Assembly: GCA_040757775.1 (NCBI GenBank)
Contig: JBFLWQ010000006.1
Span: 62,001-126,000 of the forward strand
Reading direction: 5' to 3'
DNA: 64,000 nt
DNA from: Thermodesulfobacteriota bacterium
GTDB taxonomy: Bacteria; Desulfobacterota; UBA8473
Part shown: positions 44,221-57,972 of the stretch, piece after piece
Layout of the letters: each line of letters opens with the position of its first letter
Position numbering within the stretch: the first letter of the stretch is position 1
Made by a program: the position numbers and the translations under genes
The notes under the pieces: model-generated
Databases searched by the model: none
The model's input: only the letters and a program-made list of their open reading frames with translations
What the model was told of the DNA's origin: nothing

Positions 44221-45111
44221 TCAACTCCCCACGATCGTGATTTTATCAACAAATTCAAAGGCTGGTGATTCACCATAATCTTTCCAGCGCTGTTGATAGA
44301 GAGGCAAGTCAAGAAGGCTGATATCAGTTGTCTCGCCCTCTTCTCCCTCATCGAGGCCGACATCAATCCTTATCCCACCCAAGTCGGTTAATACATAGCG
44401 TGGGTGTAGCTGATCTCCAGGATTATCTTCGTGCTGTTTCCATCGCACAAAGGTTATTGCCCTATTCCTTGGAAGAAGTAGTGGAATATGCCTCATGCAT
44501 TCTGTCTTGAAATAAGTCTCTCCTAAATCGTCGCCGACGTGATATTCTATGCGGTTAACTTTTTCGTTCCCGTCTAATGCCATCAGAAAATGAAATAGCG
44601 TTCTGCGAAATCGCTTTTTTGTTGGGTCAAAATGAGGATCGACAAAGAGTACCTCTGAAGACATTTGCAAAAGGGGCTGGACCAATTTTGCCAATACCTC
44701 TGCACTTCTCGGAACACAGTCCTCTCTCTTTACTCTTAGTAGTGGCGTATTTTCTTCGCTGACAGCATCTGCTATGAGCACCTCGGGAATACCTCTCGGA
44801 TTGGCGTTTGAAATAATCGCATGAAAGGGTTTAATGTTGTGCTGTTCTTCTGCATTAATAATCCATGCTAAAAAATAATCGTACGATCTACTTGTCTTCA
44901 TAAGCTTAAGATCAGCATTGATAAGGCTCTCTTCAATACGCTTACGCTCGTAATCGCTACATGCAGCACAGGCATCATAGACCATTTTTTTCCATTTTTT
45001 CGGGAAGCGTGAAATGAGCCGGCCACGGTGAACGCCGAATTTCTCAAGGAAATAGCGCACTTTATCAAAGTTGTACAAAACGCAGGGATCTAAGGCATAC
45101 TCATACAGCAT
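44221..45111 (-). CDS. PLD-like phosphodiesterase with HxR-x4-D motif
   Basis: 296 residues. From about 151 the sequence looks PLD-like: a strand EVLFVDPHFDP, typical of the first strand of this fold, then HPRYVLTD at 236-243, matching HxK-x4-D with arginine for lysine. Such domains act as nucleases in restriction and defence. The N-terminal half (about 1-140) is helical and unfamiliar. It is the last gene of the R-M operon, 2 bases behind the ATPase, so the two should be translated together. The nuclease reading is inference. Confidence 0.55.
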   Translation of the reverse strand: MLYEYALDPCVLYNFDKVRYFLEKFGVHRGRLISRFPKKWKKMVYDACAACSDYERKRIEESLINADLKLMKTSRSYDYFLAWIINAEEQHNIKPFHAIISNANPRGIPEVLIADAVSEENTPLLRVKREDCVPRSAEVLAKLVQPLLQMSSEVLFVDPHFDPTKKRFRRTLFHFLMALDGNEKVNRIEYHVGDDLGETYFKTECMRHIPLLLPRNRAITFVRWKQHEDNPGDQLHPRYVLTDLGGIRIDVGLDEGEEGETTDISLLDLPLYQQRWKDYGESPAFEFVDKITIVGS

Positions 45112-45113
45112 AT

Positions 45114-46694
45114 TTAGAAGAGCTCCTTAGTGCGCTCACCGAAGAAACCCCTTGGCCATTTTGTTGTGAATTCCCCTGTTTTGTCCAAATTTAATTTTGT
45201 AATACGCATTCCCTGATCTGTCTGCTCAACAAAATGGATAGAGAGCAAATCCGGAGAACACGCTGGGGCATCAACTGGCAAGCCGTCTTCACTGGTCTCT
45301 CTTATTCGTCGAAGCATCCGCAAAAGTAAATGCTCGCTATGTGTTTCTAGCAGAAAGCAGACATCCTGCTCCTTTACTTGAGAAATAAAGAGGTCACCTA
45401 ATGCAACCTGAAATGCTGGATGAATATGTAGTTCCGGCTGCTCGATAGCAACGATGCCACTGTTTGAGTGAAGGGCAACAACAATAACAGGAAGCACCTG
45501 TGAGATGCCGATCCCGACATCCTGAGGAAGCACTTCTATGCCATTTGTCTCATCTCGAAGAAACAATTTTTTCTTTTCAGGCAGCCGTTTAATTTGTTCA
45601 ATAGCTTCTTCATCATCAAACAGAAGCTCCGTACTGGTAAGAGATAACCAGAGTGAACTCGCTGTGTCGAGCTCTTTGTATTTCCTGATATCTATTCGAT
45701 AACCTGAGTTTAGTTTGTTCTCGCTTGATAACCAGGTATTTGTCTTTTGGATAAACTCGTCATCTGCCCTGTTAAGTACATCCCAGGCAGCCAAGCCGCT
45801 CGTCCATCTTGCTTCCTCTTCAGTCCGCAACGGAGTAAAAAACCTGGGCGGCGTTTTGCGAATTGGACCGATATAACGAAATTTCCTCAGTTCATCTCTC
45901 AGTACATTGGCCAACCCTCCGAAATAGGTATGGAAAAAGTCGTTAAGCGTTTCCCATGTTGATGGTGCAAGATATTCATCAAGTTCGGGTGGTTCTAATC
46001 GGTCTTTCGATTCCTCAGCCAATGCTTCTTTATCCATAAGTTCACTATTCAGGTTAATATATCGGGGGAGGGCTGTTTGCTGATCAATAAATAATTCTAT
46101 CTCGTTGCTTGAGAAGATGAAATCCTTCTTGATTGCTATCATTATGGCAGATAGCAGGTTAGGAAAATTTACGTTCTCGTCTTCAAGCTCAATCTCTGAT
46201 GTGCTGAGTAAGTGATGCTTAAAATTTATATCAACGATCCTGGCTTTTTTACCAGCCTCGTCGCAGATGATTTTGCCAAAATGCTCATCATCTAACCCTA
46301 CAGTACTTGAAAAGACGAGAGGTGCATTCAGAAAGTTGCTCCATTTGATCTCGAACTCGATCCATGCATTATCGACTTCCCCCGCCAAGAAATCTGAATA
46401 GTCGGCCAAAGGAGAATAAGCAATCTCAAACTTGAATCTCATGGGTAGGTTCAAGTCATGTTTATGTAACAGATTCCTAAATCCGCCTAAGTCGAATGAT
46501 TCATCAGCCCCTGCCGTGCGGTCTGCATCTACATTATTCCTTTCAAGAATTTCACGAACATAATGCAAAGTCTGGACAATTGTGCTCTTACCGGCGCTGT
46601 TAGGACCGAAGAGGAACGTAATTGGTTTAAACTCCACACGCACCGGCTCGTGTATGCCTTTGAAATTCTCGATGGTAAGGGCTTTAATCATCAT
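45114..46694 (-). CDS. AAA ATPase with DUF3696 domain
   Basis: 526 residues of the SMC/OLD-like ATPase type: Walker A GPNSAGKS at 30-37, signature-like GIGISQVLP near 395, Walker B VAIEQPELHIHP near 415-425, a later ETHSEHLL H-loop and the C-terminal DUF3696 pattern (TKWPRGFFGERTKEL). No TOPRIM nuclease domain, unlike OLD. Such ATPases often pair with a separate nuclease, here perhaps the PLD-like gene. ATG with GGAGAAC ahead. Confidence 0.85.
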   Translation of the reverse strand: MMIKALTIENFKGIHEPVRVEFKPITFLFGPNSAGKSTIVQTLHYVREILERNNVDADRTAGADESFDLGGFRNLLHKHDLNLPMRFKFEIAYSPLADYSDFLAGEVDNAWIEFEIKWSNFLNAPLVFSSTVGLDDEHFGKIICDEAGKKARIVDINFKHHLLSTSEIELEDENVNFPNLLSAIMIAIKKDFIFSSNEIELFIDQQTALPRYINLNSELMDKEALAEESKDRLEPPELDEYLAPSTWETLNDFFHTYFGGLANVLRDELRKFRYIGPIRKTPPRFFTPLRTEEEARWTSGLAAWDVLNRADDEFIQKTNTWLSSENKLNSGYRIDIRKYKELDTASSLWLSLTSTELLFDDEEAIEQIKRLPEKKKLFLRDETNGIEVLPQDVGIGISQVLPVIVVALHSNSGIVAIEQPELHIHPAFQVALGDLFISQVKEQDVCFLLETHSEHLLLRMLRRIRETSEDGLPVDAPACSPDLLSIHFVEQTDQGMRITKLNLDKTGEFTTKWPRGFFGERTKELF

Positions 46695-46695
46695 A

Positions 46696-47826
46696 TTACA
46701 GTTCTCCTCGGAAAGCGCGAGTGCTAAGGGAATTGAATAGTTGATCTGTTAGCTTCCCAAAAGCATCTTTGCGGTTCTGTTTTTCTGTCAACTTCAAAAC
46801 GCATGCTGCAAATTTCTCTTGTAATGCTATCGGCGGCAAATAATGCTTTATATCTCGAACTTGATCTTGTCCAATGGTGCTCATCGTTACTGTGTTGGAC
46901 TGCTTTATGATTCTTTCTCTCATGCCCGGCTGCCGCAGAAGAAAGTTATAAAAGACCCCATTCATTATGTTCGGCTTTGGACGCACACGTATCAAATGAC
47001 ACTCAAAGAGAGCCTTGCCGTTATCGCCCCAATAAACATTTGTATATCCGATGCCCCCGAGCTTGAGTGAAGATCTGCAGAAAAGAATATCACCACGTCG
47101 TAGTGAATATTTCTCGACTTCTTTTGCTGTTGGACTCAATCCTACTGAGCTTGAAGTATCAATTACATATCCAGCAAAAAGCTCCTTGACCCAAACAACT
47201 GGTACATCACCTCCATATTCCTCATTCTTTCTGAAAATGCCATTGTTGGGATTCCCTTCAATAACATCCCCTAAGCGGACTTCTGGCCACCTCTTTGGAT
47301 TGGTTATCGGGTCGCCAAACATGTCGAGGAAGACCGAGCGAAGAAATTCGTCGGTCAAGCAAATGGATTCCTGCCGCCTCTGACGGATGGAGTCAGCCTT
47401 GTCGAGGATAGCGGCTATGCGTTGCTGTTCGTCGAGAGGGGGGAGAGGGATTTCTGCATCAGTAAGATAGTTGAGTTTTATATATTTGATTACTCCACCA
47501 ATACTCATTTCTCTGAGCTTCTGGACATAAATAGATAAGAAATGAAACAAATATCTTGGAGAGAGTCTGGCTTTGTCTAAGGATTCTATAACATAGGTTC
47601 GTTGATATGCATCGAATTTACCATCGTAATATTTCACATTAAGGTCACCATTCCCAGCAACAAGAACACATTCACAATCGAAACTATAAGAATTTATTCT
47701 TAGTGGCGCTACGGCGCAGCTAAAAAAAGGATAAATTCCTTTTGGATCATTAGCGTTAGCATCGAGATTGCCTGTACGAATCTTTACATAATTTCCAAGG
47801 CTATCCGTATCATATCGCGATTTCAT
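46696..47826 (-). CDS. hsdS: type I restriction-modification specificity subunit HsdS
   Basis: 376 residues from the ATG at 47826, which overlaps the hsdM stop (TGATG) and has AGGAG upstream. Two target-recognition domains: the first ends in LPPLDEQQRIAAILDKAD and the second ends near LPPIALQEKFA, each followed by a helical spacer. It selects the DNA target of the complex. Confidence 0.93.
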   Translation of the reverse strand: MKSRYDTDSLGNYVKIRTGNLDANANDPKGIYPFFSCAVAPLRINSYSFDCECVLVAGNGDLNVKYYDGKFDAYQRTYVIESLDKARLSPRYLFHFLSIYVQKLREMSIGGVIKYIKLNYLTDAEIPLPPLDEQQRIAAILDKADSIRQRRQESICLTDEFLRSVFLDMFGDPITNPKRWPEVRLGDVIEGNPNNGIFRKNEEYGGDVPVVWVKELFAGYVIDTSSSVGLSPTAKEVEKYSLRRGDILFCRSSLKLGGIGYTNVYWGDNGKALFECHLIRVRPKPNIMNGVFYNFLLRQPGMRERIIKQSNTVTMSTIGQDQVRDIKHYLPPIALQEKFAACVLKLTEKQNRKDAFGKLTDQLFNSLSTRAFRGEL

Positions 47827-49352
47827 CACAGCATCTCCTCAAGTTCCGACATGTCCTTCATAATCTCATTCTCCAATCCCTTTAGCTTCTTCAAAATATC
47901 TTTGGGATGCTCATACTTCATCTCTTCATAGACTGTCTCTTTGTAGCGATTAAGGGAGAGGTCATAGTTCTTGTCTCTTATATCGGTCACTGGCACGAAG
48001 AAAGCCTTAGTAGTTCGAGCGATATCCTTCAGTGGATCGCGGGCTTTCCAGCTGGCCAGGCACTCAGGCAAGTCACCGGCAAAGGTGCTATCGTAAAGCT
48101 GAGTGCGTTTATCGTCGAGGGAAAATCCGTCATCCTGCATATCATAGAAGAAGACATTCTCGGTCTTGCCCCCTTTCGTGAAGATCAATATGCCAGTCGA
48201 TACCCCGGCATAGGGCTTGAAGACGCCGGACGGCAAGGAAATAACCGCCTCAAGCTGATTATTGTCCACCAGCTTTTGCCGCAGCGCAACATGGGCATTG
48301 GATGATCCAAAAAGAACACCATCGGGAACAATCGTTGCAGAGCGGCCGCCATTCTTAAGCATCCGCAGAATGAGAGCTACGAATAGGAGCTCCGTCTTCT
48401 TGGTTTTGACTTGAGCCAGAAGTGACGAGTGGACATCCTCGAAATCGAGGCTTCCCTTAAACGGCGGATTCGCCAGAATAATGTCAAAAAAATTCTGCGA
48501 TTGTTTCGGAAATTTGTCGGAAAAGCTGCCGCTCAGGGTATCCTGGTAATGAATGTCGGGGGCATCAAGGCCATGGAGCAGAAGGTTCATGGCAGCGATG
48601 CGAAGCATGGTAACGTCGAAGTCGAAACCATGGATGAGGCTTGTCTGAATGTGCTCCCGATACGGCTCCAGGAGATCGCCGCTGTAAACCTTCTCGCCCT
48701 CGTGGTCAATAACTCCCTCAGGCGAAGTGTATTTCCTCTGTAGATAGTGCATGACTTCAACGAGAAATCCGCCGGTTCCGCAGGCAGGGTCGCCAATCAC
48801 TTCATTATGCTCAAGATGGGGATCGAGTAACTCGACCATTAGGCGGATAATGTGGCGCGGTGTGCGAAACTGGCCGTTGATACCTGCAGTAGTTAGCTTG
48901 CTCAAAAGATACTCATAAAGATCGCCCTTCGTGTCTCCCTCGGTCAGAGGTAACTCGTTGATCATGTTCAAGGCAGAGACAAGCAGGGTCGGTTTGTTTA
49001 TCATTAATTGAGCATCTTTCATATATTCGCCGAACTTGGCCTCTTCTACTGCAACGTTTTTGAAGTGCGGGAAGACCTTGTCGCGCACATGTGGCAGCAT
49101 CTTGTCGGCCCCATAGTTCTTGAATTCCTTCCAGCGAAGCGCCTGGCCTCCTTCAGTGTCCGGAAAGATACGGCGGAACGGTTTGTTGGTTCTCTGGGCT
49201 TTTTTCTCATTGCGGGTTTCTGCAATGTCCAGAAGCTTCGCGAACATAAGAAACGATATCTGTTCTATAACCGTAAGTGGGTTCGTAATCCCACCAGTCC
49301 AGAATTCTTCCCACAGTTTATCGATGCGACTTTTAAGCTCTCCAGTTATCAT
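47826..49352 (-). CDS. hsdM: type I restriction-modification methyltransferase HsdM
   Basis: 508 residues: HsdM N-terminal helical domain, SAM motif [10 protein letters not shown] at 188-196 and catalytic motif NPPF at 295-298. It methylates adenine at sites chosen by HsdS. It overlaps hsdR by four bases (ATGA). Confidence 0.95.
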
Positions 49353-52300
49353 GCTGATGCTGTCTCCTTATGCTCTGGTAGTTGAAAGGGTTTAATGATC
49401 TTCAACAGTTCAACAATCTGCTCTTCATCTGTGAACACACCATCAAGACCATCACTATTAATAGAGGTGAAAGGCGGCTCATAAAGCCGATCCATCTGTA
49501 TCGCCCTGTGTTTTGAAATATGATTTTGCAACAGTCTCATGAAGAGAACCTGATTGGCAGTTACTTGTGGATATTTTTGCACAAACTGTTCGAAACGATG
49601 TTTTATGGCATTAGCGTCAACACCAATGATAGTGCGGATAATGTAATCCAGCGGGACTGCTATGTCATAAAATTCTCGAAGAATATTGAGATCAACGCTG
49701 GGATTCTGTGTTAGAACCATGGAGATAAGTGCATTCAGGTCTGTATCGTTGACTGGTTCGCCTGCTCGTATTTTTTGAAGAGTCGGGTTGGTGTCAAACA
49801 TGCTACAGAGAGTTTCCTCCACCTGCTTCTTGTATACCGATGCATCTATTTCGCGGATGTTAGACTTTCTATGAACGAGTTCTATGCCACCATCGGCAAC
49901 GTCGATAATCTTAGGCGGCATTGATGTAGTTGCATCCTTTTGACGGTGATGCATAATACCACGCAAGTCTTTTCGGACATCTTCAAGTATAGCTACACTG
50001 ACAGTATCCCAAAAGTCGGAAGTCTTGACCTTTTTAAGTGTTGCCGCCCGCTCCCTGACCGGATTGAGATGGAGTATAAGCTCGCTTATCCATCCAAGGA
50101 ACTTGTCTTTCAAATCAGCAAAACGTCCACTTCCGCGTAGAATCTCTGTCTGCATACGGGTAACCAAGAGATCAAAGGCATAGGCATCTGCAGGACCCGA
50201 AAGCTTGATCCACTGCATGAGTGGTGCCATATCGTTACGTAGGGCAGCGATAGTTGCCGGTGAAAATTGCCTAAGCACTTCAGGCCGGGACACGCTCCGT
50301 TTTTCTTTCCAATGCTTACGAACGGCGATAGTCTTTTCAGGCAAGCTGTTAAGATCCTGTCCTATTAACAGAACTGTCTGTTTGTGAACATCGATCTCAT
50401 GCTTTGTTAACGCCAGTTCCGCTAGGTCAATTCGGGCTTCAAAGAGCTTCTGCATGAGCGATTTGGTGATCGTCGGCTCAGCTTCAGGTATGTTCTCCTC
50501 AAAGTATTCGAAATTCCCCCAGTGGTCGAAGATACGGAACTTCGTCTTATCTTTTCCGGGACCGAACAGATTCTTGCTTAGACGGGTACCTCGACCAATC
50601 ATCTGCCAGAATTTGACGCGGGACTTTACTGGCTTGGCAAATACGAGATTCACGATTTCAGGAATGTCGATTCCTGTATCAAGCATGTCCACAGAAATAG
50701 CTATAGTTAAATCCTTATTGTTTCCCTCTCCCTTGAAATCATCTATAAGCTGTTCTGCCCGAGGATCATAGTTATCAATCACCTGGCAGAAAGAACCGCC
50801 ATACTGTGGATACATCTCGTCAAAGAGCTCAGAGATCAATATGGCATGTTCATGATTCCGAGCAAAGATGATAGTTCTGCCGGGATGTTGGCCAGTCGCT
50901 TCACGAAGACCATTTTCCATGAGATTACAGAGAATGGCTCGGTTTGTATCTTTGTTGAATATCTGTCTGTCGACCTCTGTTGCCTCGTAATCAAAGGTCT
51001 CAGGGTCTTCACCGTCCTCCTCCAGTTGTTGCCTCTGCTCATCGGTAAGCTGAGAGTACTTTATCCCACTGCGGAGGAAGTTAGTTGTATGAGTATAGAC
51101 CTCATAAGGCACAAGATATTCTTCTTCTACCGCGCGTTCGAGGGGATAATATGAAGACGGGTGTTTATCTTCACAATCGAAAAGCCGGTATGTGTTTCTC
51201 GCAACATATTGAACTGGTGTAGCGGTCAGCCCAATCTGGAGACAGTCAAAATAGACGAAGGGGTCACGGTACCGATTATAGATGCTGCGGTGAGACTCGT
51301 CGGCAATGATAAGATCGAAAAAGCCCACATCAAAGGTCTCGAATATCTTCATCATTGCAGGATATGTCGATAAATATATTCGCTTGCTGCGGTCCTTTGC
51401 AGTATCGGCTCGTACAATAGTAAGAGGCTCATTAATAAATTCTTTAAAAACATTTTTTGCCTGCTTTCGAAGTTCCCTACGGTCGCAAAGGAAAAGGACT
51501 CTCTTTACCCACCCGGCACGAATAAGAAGGTCGGTGAGCGCTATTGCAACACGGGTCTTTCCGGTGCCGGTTGCCTGAACAAGAAGGGCCTTGCGGTAGC
51601 CGTTGCCGAATCTCTCGCAGACACGTTTGATAGCCTCAAGTTGATAGAGGCGGTCAACAATCTCTGTCCTTGGTGAGATAGAATCAAGAGGCACTTTAGT
51701 TCTTCTTTGCTGGACAAGATACTGAAGACTGTCCTTCGAATAGAAACCTTGTATCTGCCGCGGAGGGTAATTCTGCGAATCATCCCACATCCAGAGTTCA
51801 AATCCATTTGTGTAAAAGATAACCGGTCGTTGGCCATATTTTTTTTCAAGACCTTCGGCATATAGCTGTGCCTGCTTGCGGCCGATGTTAGGATCAACAG
51901 CAGTCCTTTTCGCCTCAATCACTGCCAGAGGTTTGCCGTCATCATCCTTTAATTCGTAGTCGGCATAGCCGATTCCTGTTTGAGTAGGCTGATAGGGAAC
52001 AGTCTCTTCCTTGACCATCATGCCATCCCATTCAGCCTTGAAATCCCAGCCAACCTCCGTGAGCATACTGTCGATAAGTCGCTTCCTCGTAGCTTCCTCA
52101 TTAAAGCCCAGGACATCAACAGCCTGTTTGCCGGCATTAGTAAGAGCCTGCAAGTATTCAGTCTTCTGTGCTACAAGCTGAATTGCCGCCTGTTTGGTTT
52201 CCAGTTGCTGTAGAAGTTCTTGCAGCCTGGCTTCCTGAGCAGCCAGCTTTTCAAAGAGAGCCTTGTGCGGTACAGCTGCTGCTTTTTCTGTCACTTCTTC

Positions 52301-52726
52301 AGTAACAGGACGAGGGACTTCCTGATATGAAGGGCACTCATTTTTGCTCCCATTTTCAACAACTATATAAAACCAGCAAGCAAGATCAAAGGCTTCCTTT
52401 AGAAGCCAAAGGGACTTTTCTTTTGTCTGGGGATCACCATGGGCTGCCTTGTTGCCATGGATACGGATACTATGGAATTTGTCGAGGACAACAAACGGTA
52501 CAGTTGAACGGAAGGCGTCATTATTCAAGAGGTCCAGAAGATTTGGCTGATAGGGCCTTGGCAGGCCTAATTTTGCATAGATACGCGTGACCATCCTTTC
52601 GATAAACGAACGAAGCTTGACCAGACAACTCGACGGGTCATGATAGACGTACTGTTCAGCAAAGCCCGCGAGGTCTGCCAGCTCTGGGGAGTTTTTTCGG
52701 AGGATCTCAAAATTAGTGGATTCCAT
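49349..52726 (-). CDS. hsdR: type I restriction endonuclease HsdR with DUF4145 domain
   Basis: I place the start at the ATG at 52726 (MESTNFEIL), which has GGAAGCG upstream and lies just downstream of the transcription start expected from the sigma-54 promoter at 52755-52770. About 1125 residues: DUF4145 (about 10-110), coiled coil, HsdR nuclease domain with IEAKRT near 271 (PD-ExK type), helicase with QATGTGKT near 385 and DESH, then a C-terminal EcoEI-R-type domain. The enzyme translocates and cuts unmethylated DNA. Confidence 0.93.
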
Positions 52727-52754: not shown

Positions 52755-52770
52755 CGCAAACATTATGCCA
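52755..52770 (-). promoter_or_regulatory. sigma-54 promoter (-24/-12) of the hsdRMS operon
   Basis: On the minus strand TGGCATAATGTTTGCG fits the sigma-54 consensus (TGGCAC-N5-TTGC): GG at 52769-52768 and GC at 52757-52756 are separated by exactly 10 bases. It begins right after the TGA of the sigma-54 activator gene. The expected start of transcription is near 52744, 18 bases ahead of the preferred hsdR ATG. Confidence 0.75.
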
Positions 52771-54288
52771 TCATTTCTCGATACCATATTTTTTCATCCA
52801 GTTGCTAACAGTCTGGTAGTTTGATAACCCTACCAATTTGGCGATCTTTGTCTTGTTCCCCTTGCTCTCAGTAACCGCTCTTTTCAGATAATGACGCGCC
52901 ACATCTGAAAGCACGTCAGGCAAGCTGAAACCATTGCCCATACTGCGATTGAGGGTCTTCTCTTGGTCTTTCTGGGAAGTGCTCACGGGGAACAACGCCT
53001 CCCTAATATCGCCAATTTCTATCGTCTCATCCGCGATCAGGATAGCAGCCCGCGAAAGCGTATTGTAGAGCTCCCGAACATTACCAGGCCAAGGGTGCTG
53101 GTGCATAAGATTTCTTGCGCCGGCAGAAAGTTTCTTATGCTTCCAACCGGATACGTCCTCGAACTTCTTATTTATGCTGTCAAGGATATGATCGATCACC
53201 GGGTTAATATCTCCGTGACGGTCTCTGAGCGATGGCAGGTTCAACATACCAACGGCTATACGATGAAACAGGTCATCCCTGAATCTCCCCGCTGCGACAT
53301 CCTCGATAAGATTGCGATTGGTTGCAGCGATGATCCTAACATTAATTGATTCTGCCTTGCTGGAGCCGACCTTAGTGATCATGCCCCCCTGAATGGCGCG
53401 CAGAAGCTTTACCTGTGCAGGAAGGGGCAGCTCTCCGATTTCATCAAGGAAAAGGGTCCCGCCATCAGCACTTGAGAAATATCCCTCCTTGTCGGCTATA
53501 GCACCCGTGAATGCTCCTTTCTTGTACCCGAAGAACTCTGACTCCACCAGATCGGGCGGTATCGAGCCGCAGTTGACTGCGACAAAGGGCTTATCTTTTC
53601 TTGGGCTTGTTGTATGAATAGCACGAGCGAAAAGCTCCTTGCCAGTGCCGGTCTCTCCCTGTATAAGGACAGGAACATCATGAACTGCGAGCCTTCGCGC
53701 CTGCGCAATGACTCTCTTCATCTCCTTACAACGGTGAATGATAGCACCGAACTCAGGAGACTCAGGAGGTAGCCCCTGGGTGAGCCTCAGTATTTCATCG
53801 TCAGCAGGTTTCAGGATGTCGGGTATATAATCAGCCGATATTTCAAAAGGAAAAGATACGGTCTTTAATCCTTTATCCTGAGACGACTCGATTAGTTCAG
53901 CGGGATGCGAGGTCTTTGATAGAAGTATCCAGACAGCAGCCATAGCCGGAGTGCCAGGGCTTAGGTGATAGGTTGAGTGTAGTTCCTTCAACCCAAGCTT
54001 TTTTATTACATCATTTATAGCGTTGGTCGCTGCCCCATAAATCTCTTTGAAGTCTGTCGGGCTGGTTAATTCAACATGATATTTAAGAATCATGGCCGCC
54101 GTGTTTCCCTTGAGCCAGTCGATGAAATGCTTTTCTTCCTCTTCCTTGTAGTTTGAAATTAGGATGACATGAGAAAAAGTGCGTTTGCTAACGGCCTGAC
54201 CAATTGGCCCAACGCCATTTTCCAGTTCCCCCTGTGAGGCTCTCAGGTCGGTTTTTCCTATCCAGGCAAACAGGACTTTATTAACCAT
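52771..54288 (-). CDS. RtcR-like CARF-domain sigma-54-dependent activator
   Basis: 505 residues from the ATG at 54288 (an ATG three codons upstream is less likely; see promoter). Residues 1-160 resemble the CARF domain of RtcR: VELTSPTDFKEIYGA, then LSPGTPAMAAVWILLSKT (ligand-loop GT motif) and AELIESSQ. The AAA+ domain has Walker A GETGTGKE (about 211-218), the sigma-54-contacting GAFTGA (about 258-263), Walker B TLFLDE and a C-terminal Fis-type helix-turn-helix. No rtcA/rtcB genes are here; instead hsdR follows behind a sigma-54 promoter. CARF domains bind nucleotide or RNA-end ligands; which one is unknown here. Confidence 0.88.
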   Translation of the reverse strand: MVNKVLFAWIGKTDLRASQGELENGVGPIGQAVSKRTFSHVILISNYKEEEEKHFIDWLKGNTAAMILKYHVELTSPTDFKEIYGAATNAINDVIKKLGLKELHSTYHLSPGTPAMAAVWILLSKTSHPAELIESSQDKGLKTVSFPFEISADYIPDILKPADDEILRLTQGLPPESPEFGAIIHRCKEMKRVIAQARRLAVHDVPVLIQGETGTGKELFARAIHTTSPRKDKPFVAVNCGSIPPDLVESEFFGYKKGAFTGAIADKEGYFSSADGGTLFLDEIGELPLPAQVKLLRAIQGGMITKVGSSKAESINVRIIAATNRNLIEDVAAGRFRDDLFHRIAVGMLNLPSLRDRHGDINPVIDHILDSINKKFEDVSGWKHKKLSAGARNLMHQHPWPGNVRELYNTLSRAAILIADETIEIGDIREALFPVSTSQKDQEKTLNRSMGNGFSLPDVLSDVARHYLKRAVTESKGNKTKIAKLVGLSNYQTVSNWMKKYGIEK

Positions 54289-54323
54289 AGTAAACATTAT
54301 ACAAAATATTTCATAAGTCGCAA
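54289..54323 (-). promoter_or_regulatory. sigma-70 promoter giving a leaderless activator mRNA
   Basis: On minus: TTGCGA (54323-54318), 16-base spacer, TATAAT (54301-54296). The ATG of the activator begins 7 bases after the -10, where transcription should start, and no ribosome site exists. The mRNA would thus be leaderless. Confidence 0.6.
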
Positions 54324-54559
54324 GATATTTTATTTCTTATTACTTTAGAAGGTGATATAGTATAAAGAATATATACTGTGAGACCTTTGGAAAACTATTT
54401 TTCTTTTGAATTGCCCACCCCCTACATAAAAAGGATTTACAAAAAGAAAAAAGGGATTATATTAAAAAGAAAGACTAAAAGACGATAGTCTTATAGAGAA
54501 AACAATTAACCGAATTAGCTAAGGTGGTTAATGGGGTTAAACATAGGGAGGTACTAAGG
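54324..54559. other. AT-rich intergenic region ahead of the IscU-like gene
   Basis: It holds a 19-base dyad (AGTATA-7-TATACT, 54359-54377) and A-rich tracts. The promoter of the iron-sulfur genes should be here, perhaps with a -10 near TATATT (54459). No gene seen. Confidence 0.4.
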
Positions 54560-57117: not shown

Positions 57118-57972
57118 GTGAATACTTACATCTTGACAATGCTTAAAAAAAATGTCCTTGACGACCTTTATGCCAGATACAACCGGCGAGAGTTTGTCCA
57201 TCCGGACCCCCTGGAATTCTTATACCATTACGAAGATATTAGAGACCGTGAGATAGTTGGTCTCGTTGCCTCTGCTCTTGCCTATGGAAGGGTTCAACAG
57301 ATACTGAAAAGTGTTTCTTTCGTGCTTCAACGGATGCAGCCATCTCCTTCCCTTTTCCTAAGTCATGCTTCCAGGGAGGCGCTTCTTCTTGACTTTGCAG
57401 GGTTCAAACATCGGTTTACCACCAGGGAGGATATTGTATCGATGCTTCTGGGAATCAAAGGTATTATTGAACGGTATGGTTCTCTTCAGGCATGTTTTGT
57501 CGCCGGCATAAATGATTGTGACAGTACAATTCTACCAGCGATTTCAGCCTTTGCTAAGGAATTGAACACTGAACAAAACGGCAGTCCCAACAGTCTCTTG
57601 CCTTCTCCAACGAAAGGCAGTGCATGCAAACGGCTCAACCTCTTTCTGCGCTGGATGGTAAGAAAGGATGAAGTCGACCCGGGAGGGTGGGATACAGTAA
57701 AGGCTTCTAAACTCATTGTTCCCCTTGATACCCACATGCACAGGATATGTCTTTCCCTCAAGATAACAGGGCGAAAACAGGCAGATATACGCACAGCCAC
57801 TGAGATAACCGCCGCCTTCAGGACAATTTCTCCTGATGATCCAGTCAGGTATGACTTCGCCCTCACCCGTTTAGGAATACGAAATGAAGGAGATATGGAC
57901 GATTTTCTGAAACAGTGCGGCATGCTGGAAGAACCGAGTCATCTTTCAGATGCCTTTAACTTGATTGTATAA
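57118..57972 (+). CDS. TIGR02757 (DUF2400) family protein
   Basis: 284 residues matching TIGR02757: DPLEFLYHYEDIRDREIVGLVAS, ALAYGRV, LFLRWMVRKDEVDPGGW and PLDTHMHRI. The fold resembles helix-hairpin-helix DNA glycosylases in the late part; function unproven. The start is GTG at 57118; an ATG at 57139 is an alternative. It ends 26 bases from the end of the NO reductase on the other strand. Confidence 0.88.
   Translation: MNTYILTMLKKNVLDDLYARYNRREFVHPDPLEFLYHYEDIRDREIVGLVASALAYGRVQQILKSVSFVLQRMQPSPSLFLSHASREALLLDFAGFKHRFTTREDIVSMLLGIKGIIERYGSLQACFVAGINDCDSTILPAISAFAKELNTEQNGSPNSLLPSPTKGSACKRLNLFLRWMVRKDEVDPGGWDTVKASKLIVPLDTHMHRICLSLKITGRKQADIRTATEITAAFRTISPDDPVRYDFALTRLGIRNEGDMDDFLKQCGMLEEPSHLSDAFNLIV

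Follow-up and report, generated by a model that had tools for sequence, protein, structure and literature searches.

A DUF3696-type ABC ATPase paired with a predicted PLD-fold protein behind a type I restriction-modification operon and an RtcR-like activator

Organization of the locus and its upstream activator

The window analysed here (the whole stretch of 64,000 nt from contig JBFLWQ010000006.1 of a Thermodesulfobacteriota bacterium) contains an operon on its minus strand, in which an RtcR-like activator is followed, in reading order, by a candidate sigma54 promoter, hsdR, hsdM, hsdS, an ABC ATPase gene and a gene for a PLD-like protein. The type I restriction-modification (R-M) set is complete, with HsdR (49349–52726; Pfam HSDR_N, ResIII, EcoEI_R_C), HsdM (47826–49352; N6_Mtase, HsdM_N) and HsdS (46696–47829; Methylase_S) all present. 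Behind hsdS lie the ATPase gene (45114–46694, encoding 526 aa) and, after 2 nt, the gene of the proposed effector, a 296-aa protein (44221–45111), so that the preliminary description of this DNA, which had an ATPase with an adjoining gene 2 bases downstream, had the coordinates right, although it gave no strand. The GC content of the operon (0.46) is close to that of the remaining window (0.43) and is thus no help on the question of transfer.

The activator (52771–54297, minus strand, 508 aa) carries a sigma54 AAA+ domain (Pfam Sigma54_activat), and its CARF region, which has no direct Pfam match, was assigned through alignment to two homologues with CARF matches (L021 and L012). Its best NCBIfam match is RtcR (NF038308; 1.1e-102), but the 344.6 bits fall below the equivalog cutoff of 650, and we therefore call the protein RtcR-like rather than RtcR. 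The CARF domain of RtcR binds tRNA fragments bearing a cyclic phosphate (PMC7790460), a 2014 paper noted RtcR-like activators near R-M systems (PMC4012209), and CoCoNuT superoperons contain them too (PMC11090510); given the latter two precedents, the regulator is of a known kind in a new setting. The genome encodes RpoN and RtcB.

Abutting the activator stop codon, a weighted −24/−12 scan placed a candidate sigma54 promoter, TGGCATAATGTTTGCG (52755–52770, minus strand), with a score of 19 and a shuffle p of 0.026, a value that makes the case for a promoter rest more on the set of loci than on this single site. Sites scoring at least 19 within 220 nt behind the activator were found at 12 of 16 loci; 0 of 25 control gene ends taken at these loci had one, as did 7% of random stretches. 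In four loci without R-M genes (L021, L027, L048 and L068) a sigma54 site stands directly ahead of the ATPase gene. Two loci, L033 (best score 17.5) and L026 (best 14.5), had no convincing sigma54 promoters. The hsdR reading frame opens at TTG 52759, and the position of the promoter implies a start at ATG 52741 or 52726 instead. Two repeats lie nearby: a perfect 8-nt dyad inside the activator gene, TTTCAGAT-N13-ATCTGAAA (52882–52910), which lies about 115 nt ahead of the candidate promoter and is a candidate binding site for the activator, and, upstream of the activator gene, an inverted repeat with 16-nt arms that are 75% complementary (54349–54387).

The ATPase and its PLD-like partner

The ATPase was matched by Pfam AAA_15 and AAA_21 and, at its C terminus (45120–45260), by DUF3696. 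Among 80 aligned ATPases the Walker A motif, a signature-like GxGxSQ, the Walker B EQPE, an H-loop ETHSEH and the terminal WPxGFFxERxxELF are nearly invariant, and with both the ABC motifs and the DUF3696 tail present, the protein is an OLD-like ABC ATPase of the DUF3696 branch. No TOPRIM profile in Pfam matched either the ATPase, which had already been described as free of TOPRIM, or its partner. Among PADLOC profiles, NsnB (Menshen) matches the ATPase most strongly, at 1.8e-45, and the AriA profile of PARIS matches at 6e-25; genuine NsnB proteins of the same phylum score 1e-106 to 1e-108 and stand beside NsnC (plus NsnA in L098). Small proteins follow other DUF3696 ATPases in the phylum; one of these partners has a weak PIN match and another a HEC-03A match. 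Sister branches of the DUF3696 ATPase thus have different partners (NsnC, or small PIN/HEC-03A-like proteins), which implies that this ATPase branch works with several, the PLD-like protein being a further kind.

Structurally, the 296-aa protein consists of an N-terminal alpha/beta region (residues 1–126; 44734–45111), in which E4, A6, P9, R31, P37, W83 and F96 are invariant in alignment A3, and a PLD-like, MIT_C-like domain (residues 127–294; 44230–44733). The AlphaFold2 (AF2) model, built from 64 homologues, has a mean pLDDT of 96.2, and in this model VIA-align places residues 127–294 in the PLD superfamily, with matches to PS synthase (Z 11.6), MITD1 (Z 11.2, rmsd 3.1, 17% identity), SauUSI (Z 10.5), NucT (Z 10.3) and BfiI (Z 8.8), in agreement with the PLD-like class first proposed for the protein from its motifs. 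Foldseek alone was weak, and because its top rows (TrmBL2) had low TM-scores, VIA-align was given more weight; both were run on the whole 296-aa model and barely probe residues 1–126. By profile comparison, the nearest sequence family of the PLD-like domain is MIT_C, which is present in the BrxL C terminus and in MITD1: hhalign aligned the domain with the MIT_C domain at the C terminus of bacterial BrxL (prob 96.5, E 7.5e-10), with the HxR and DP motifs in register. Direct searches for known families were negative, with the window protein giving no match to Pfam MIT_C (PF16565), which 2 of its 64 homologues matched at E 0.093 at best, below the cutoff for membership, no Pfam, NCBIfam or PADLOC family covering the protein, and chance matches alone (E 0.06 or worse) when it was compared with PDB sequences by phmmer and profile search. 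The ATPase/PLD module is likewise named by none of the profile libraries used. A more distant set of PLD-like proteins (L006, L007 and L093–L095) matches over the full length in hhalign (prob 99.6) and also adjoins DUF3696-type ATPases. At one of these loci (L093, genome G075, same genus), the distant-type gene adjoins a relative of window gene 57118–57972 and the ATPase frame is just 145 aa long, perhaps a decayed pair.

The sequence features singled out in the preliminary description, a VDPHFDP strand (residues 157–163; 44623–44643) and HPRYVLTD (residues 236–243; 44383–44406), are present. Across 83 homologues, down to about 20% identity, H236, R238 and G252 occur in every sequence, and D158 of the strand is kept in 81, the other 2 having E. 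Conservation of both H236 and D243 had been anticipated; the histidine bears this out, but position 243 varies (D 43, E 29, N 9, K 1, A 1). The canonical PLD motif HxK-x4-D is therefore replaced by HxR in 83 of 83 sequences with mostly D, E or N at the last position, and every homologue has Arg where canonical PLDs have their catalytic Lys. Canonical PLDs carry GSxN, a position that reads GLD here. The GLD and the variable position 243 suggest that the active site may be altered; the occurrence of H236, R238 and G252 without exception would suit catalysis.

Pairing, genomic context and exchange of genes

A single-protein scan of genome contigs gave no relatives, and the pattern search was made with the closer alignment set A2, A1 being too divergent for it. 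In 79 of 79 loci outside the window the ATPase gene directly precedes the PLD-like gene, 77 of them counted by script and two by inspection (L020, where the end of the ATPase is present, and L038, where the PLD frame is broken in two behind the ATPase). The genes overlap by 1 nt in 51 loci and by 4 nt in 10, and are 2 nt apart in 11. Since they abut at every one of these loci, the pairing is not due to chance.

Context was counted at the 59 full-flank loci, those whose upstream sequence extends for 8.6 kb or more. An hsdM or hsdS gene was found in 50 of these, and all of hsdRMS in 39, and a sigma54 activator was in view in 14 and a WYL regulator in 10. This survey upholds the earlier view of a two-gene unit on a type I R-M system; it also yielded nine loci lacking both hsdM and hsdS, with a sigma54 activator directly ahead of the pair in four, which implies that the pair is a unit of its own. 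Some pairs are on plasmids. No near match of the operon was found in the plasmids searched. One relative was found in viral contigs, tblastn against phage records gave no match, and the Pectobacterium homologue had no near match in E. coli genomes.

Several loci show variations on this arrangement. In Candidatus Nitrotoga and relatives (L046, L047, L049, L050, L053–L057, L059 and L080) an RmuC-family gene directly precedes hsdM, hsdS, the ATPase and the PLD-like gene, and no HsdR was seen in these loci, perhaps indicating an R-M-like operon without a restriction helicase. In Rhodopirellula hsdS is separated from the ATPase/PLD pair by a Shedu-type (SduA_C) protein (L023:5856–7052), and on a Methylocella tundrae plasmid SIR2 and DUF87 proteins, a further likely defence pair, come after the ATPase and PLD-like genes (L009:13041–16334). 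A 1272-aa protein without a Pfam match stands ahead of the pair in one locus (L029:3557–7375), and a frame of the same length lies near it in another (L028:1201–5019).

Evolutionarily, the window PLD-like gene and ATPase belong to different lineages. Compared with L043, from a Nitrospirae MAG, HsdR, HsdM and the ATPase are 81, 88 and 81% identical, versus 34% for HsdS and 31% for the PLD-like protein; the window PLD-like protein instead shares 63% identity with its counterpart in L017, where the identity between ATPases is 31%. Over 44 loci, distances between PLD-like proteins correlate with those between ATPases (Mantel r 0.75) and less closely with those between HsdM proteins (r 0.39). Taken with the L043 and L017 mismatches, these figures indicate that the ATPase and PLD-like genes usually stay together, although the latter can be exchanged. 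Such differing lineages fit a tightly co-adapted pair poorly, unless the interface is conserved. Here the operon is flanked by a HEAT-repeat gene and a nifU-like gene. In the sister genome G039 no more than about 0.2 kb separates these two genes and the operon is absent, and G108 and G137 likewise have no operon between them. Either this species acquired the operon or the others lost it.

Proposed function and relation to known systems

With slightly better than even confidence, we propose that the pair serves as an effector module linked to a type I R-M system, inducible and gated by the ATPase, that would back up restriction; its nuclease activity and its role in phage defence are predicted. 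The RtcR-like CARF activator would sense a ligand, probably 2′,3′-cyclic phosphate RNA ends arising from infection or stress, and would then fire the sigma54 promoter behind its own gene, known here as a sequence, so that hsdRMS, the ATPase and the PLD-like protein were raised together. A dimer of the ABC ATPase may bind the PLD-like protein and keep it inactive until a second cue, for example inhibition of the R-M complex. Once released, the PLD-like domain would use H236, and R238 instead of Lys, to hydrolyse nucleic-acid phosphodiester bonds and, since it has a single HxR motif, it would need to dimerise; the infected cell would be stopped or the invader degraded. That a sigma54 activator is in view at only 14 of the 59 full-flank loci, with a WYL regulator at 10, weighs against this reading. 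More tentatively, and on balance doubtfully, the whole may be read as a layered immune operon: RNA damage, sensed by the CARF-sigma54 activator, would switch on restriction together with an MIT_C-type effector gated by the ABC ATPase, and the effector gene would be swapped among ATPase lineages in much the way of HsdS. The RtcR-like activator, the sigma54 promoter and the independent exchange of the PLD-like gene are additions to the preliminary description, and the first two form a testable link from RNA damage to inducible restriction.

A rather unlikely alternative is that the PLD-like protein is no enzyme and its HxR pocket binds a membrane or a phosphorylated ligand, as in MITD1, making it an adaptor, a sensor or a membrane-disturbing subunit of the ATPase. 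Its nearest relatives are MITD1 and the MIT_C domain of BrxL, and MITD1, a eukaryotic abscission protein, is described as a membrane-binding PLD fold in the title of reference 205 of PMC9776629. The Arg in place of Lys and the drift of Asp to Glu or Asn would also fit, and swapping of the gene would suit a sensor, but the unbroken H236, R238 and G252 speak for an active site, and a BREX study judged, without assay, that the same HRD form of BrxL is likely active (PMC12839542). The context survey bears on a different and decidedly unlikely idea, namely that the pair operates within the restriction machinery itself, modulating or processing HsdR-cut DNA for example, instead of being a separate effector. 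Its usual place downstream of hsdS, within a mostly R-M-associated set of loci, and the fact that it follows two unlike HsdM types agree with this; the loci without hsdM or hsdS, including those directly under a sigma54 activator, and the more distant relatives, likewise paired with DUF3696 ATPases, argue against it. It seems very improbable that the two coupled genes, sometimes on plasmids, are a toxin-antitoxin pair that scarcely acts on phage directly and mainly stabilises the R-M operon or the plasmid carrying it: toxin-antitoxin pairs usually have another gene order and other sizes, ATP use is implied by the conserved ABC site, and the similarly designed WonAB proved to be no simple toxin-antitoxin system (PMC12137116).

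As a class, the pair is a variant of the OLD-ABC/effector dyad, and not PARIS, Gabija, Menshen, HEC-03 or WonAB. It is real, conserved and widespread, each of its components is of a kind already known, and we found no description of this exact pair in the open-licence literature; a PLD-type, MIT_C-related effector thereby joins the known partners of OLD-like ABC ATPases, and the stand-alone pairs let the module be studied without R-M genes. WonAB of Vibrio cholerae is likewise a two-gene system of an OLD-ABC ATPase and a small effector, predicted to form a complex, which aborts infection and needs both genes and ATPase activity; its effector, however, is a PD-(D/E)xK protein, whereas the window effector has a PLD fold and sits on a type I R-M operon (PMC12137116). 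The earlier comparison with OLD and PARIS is apt as to logic, PARIS (AriA/AriB) being an ABC ATPase with a separate effector and linked to anti-restriction sensing (PMC12839542), but AriB is a TOPRIM protein. Membership among OLD nucleases, Gabija or PARIS was rejected, with TOPRIM matched in neither gene and a PLD fold in the partner. Menshen (NsnABC), the source of the strongest PADLOC match, was rejected because the window ATPase has HsdS and the PLD-like protein as neighbours, neither of them NsnA (DUF262) or NsnC, and genuine NsnB scores far higher. The PADLOC candidates HEC-03 and PDC-M55 also combine a DUF3696-type ATPase with a small partner, but the HEC-03A-like partner is small and probably PIN-like, whereas no PADLOC model matches the PLD-like protein. 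In PrrC a single protein carries a HEPN-type RNase, in contrast to the two genes and PLD fold of the window. PrrC resembles the pair as an ABC-type ATPase/RNase linked to type I R-M, being silenced by the linked type I enzyme EcoprrI and freed by a phage anti-restriction factor (PMC2610378). BrxL and MITD1 share by profile comparison the same PLD-like HxR...GLD domain, fused there to a Lon-like ATPase or to MIT and present here as a separate protein with an N-terminal region of its own. Lastly, RtcR-led superoperons likewise place an RtcR-like CARF-sigma54 activator ahead of R-M genes (PMC11090510, PMC4012209), but the window operon differs from CoCoNuTs in having no McrB-like genes and in carrying the ATPase/PLD pair as its downstream effector.
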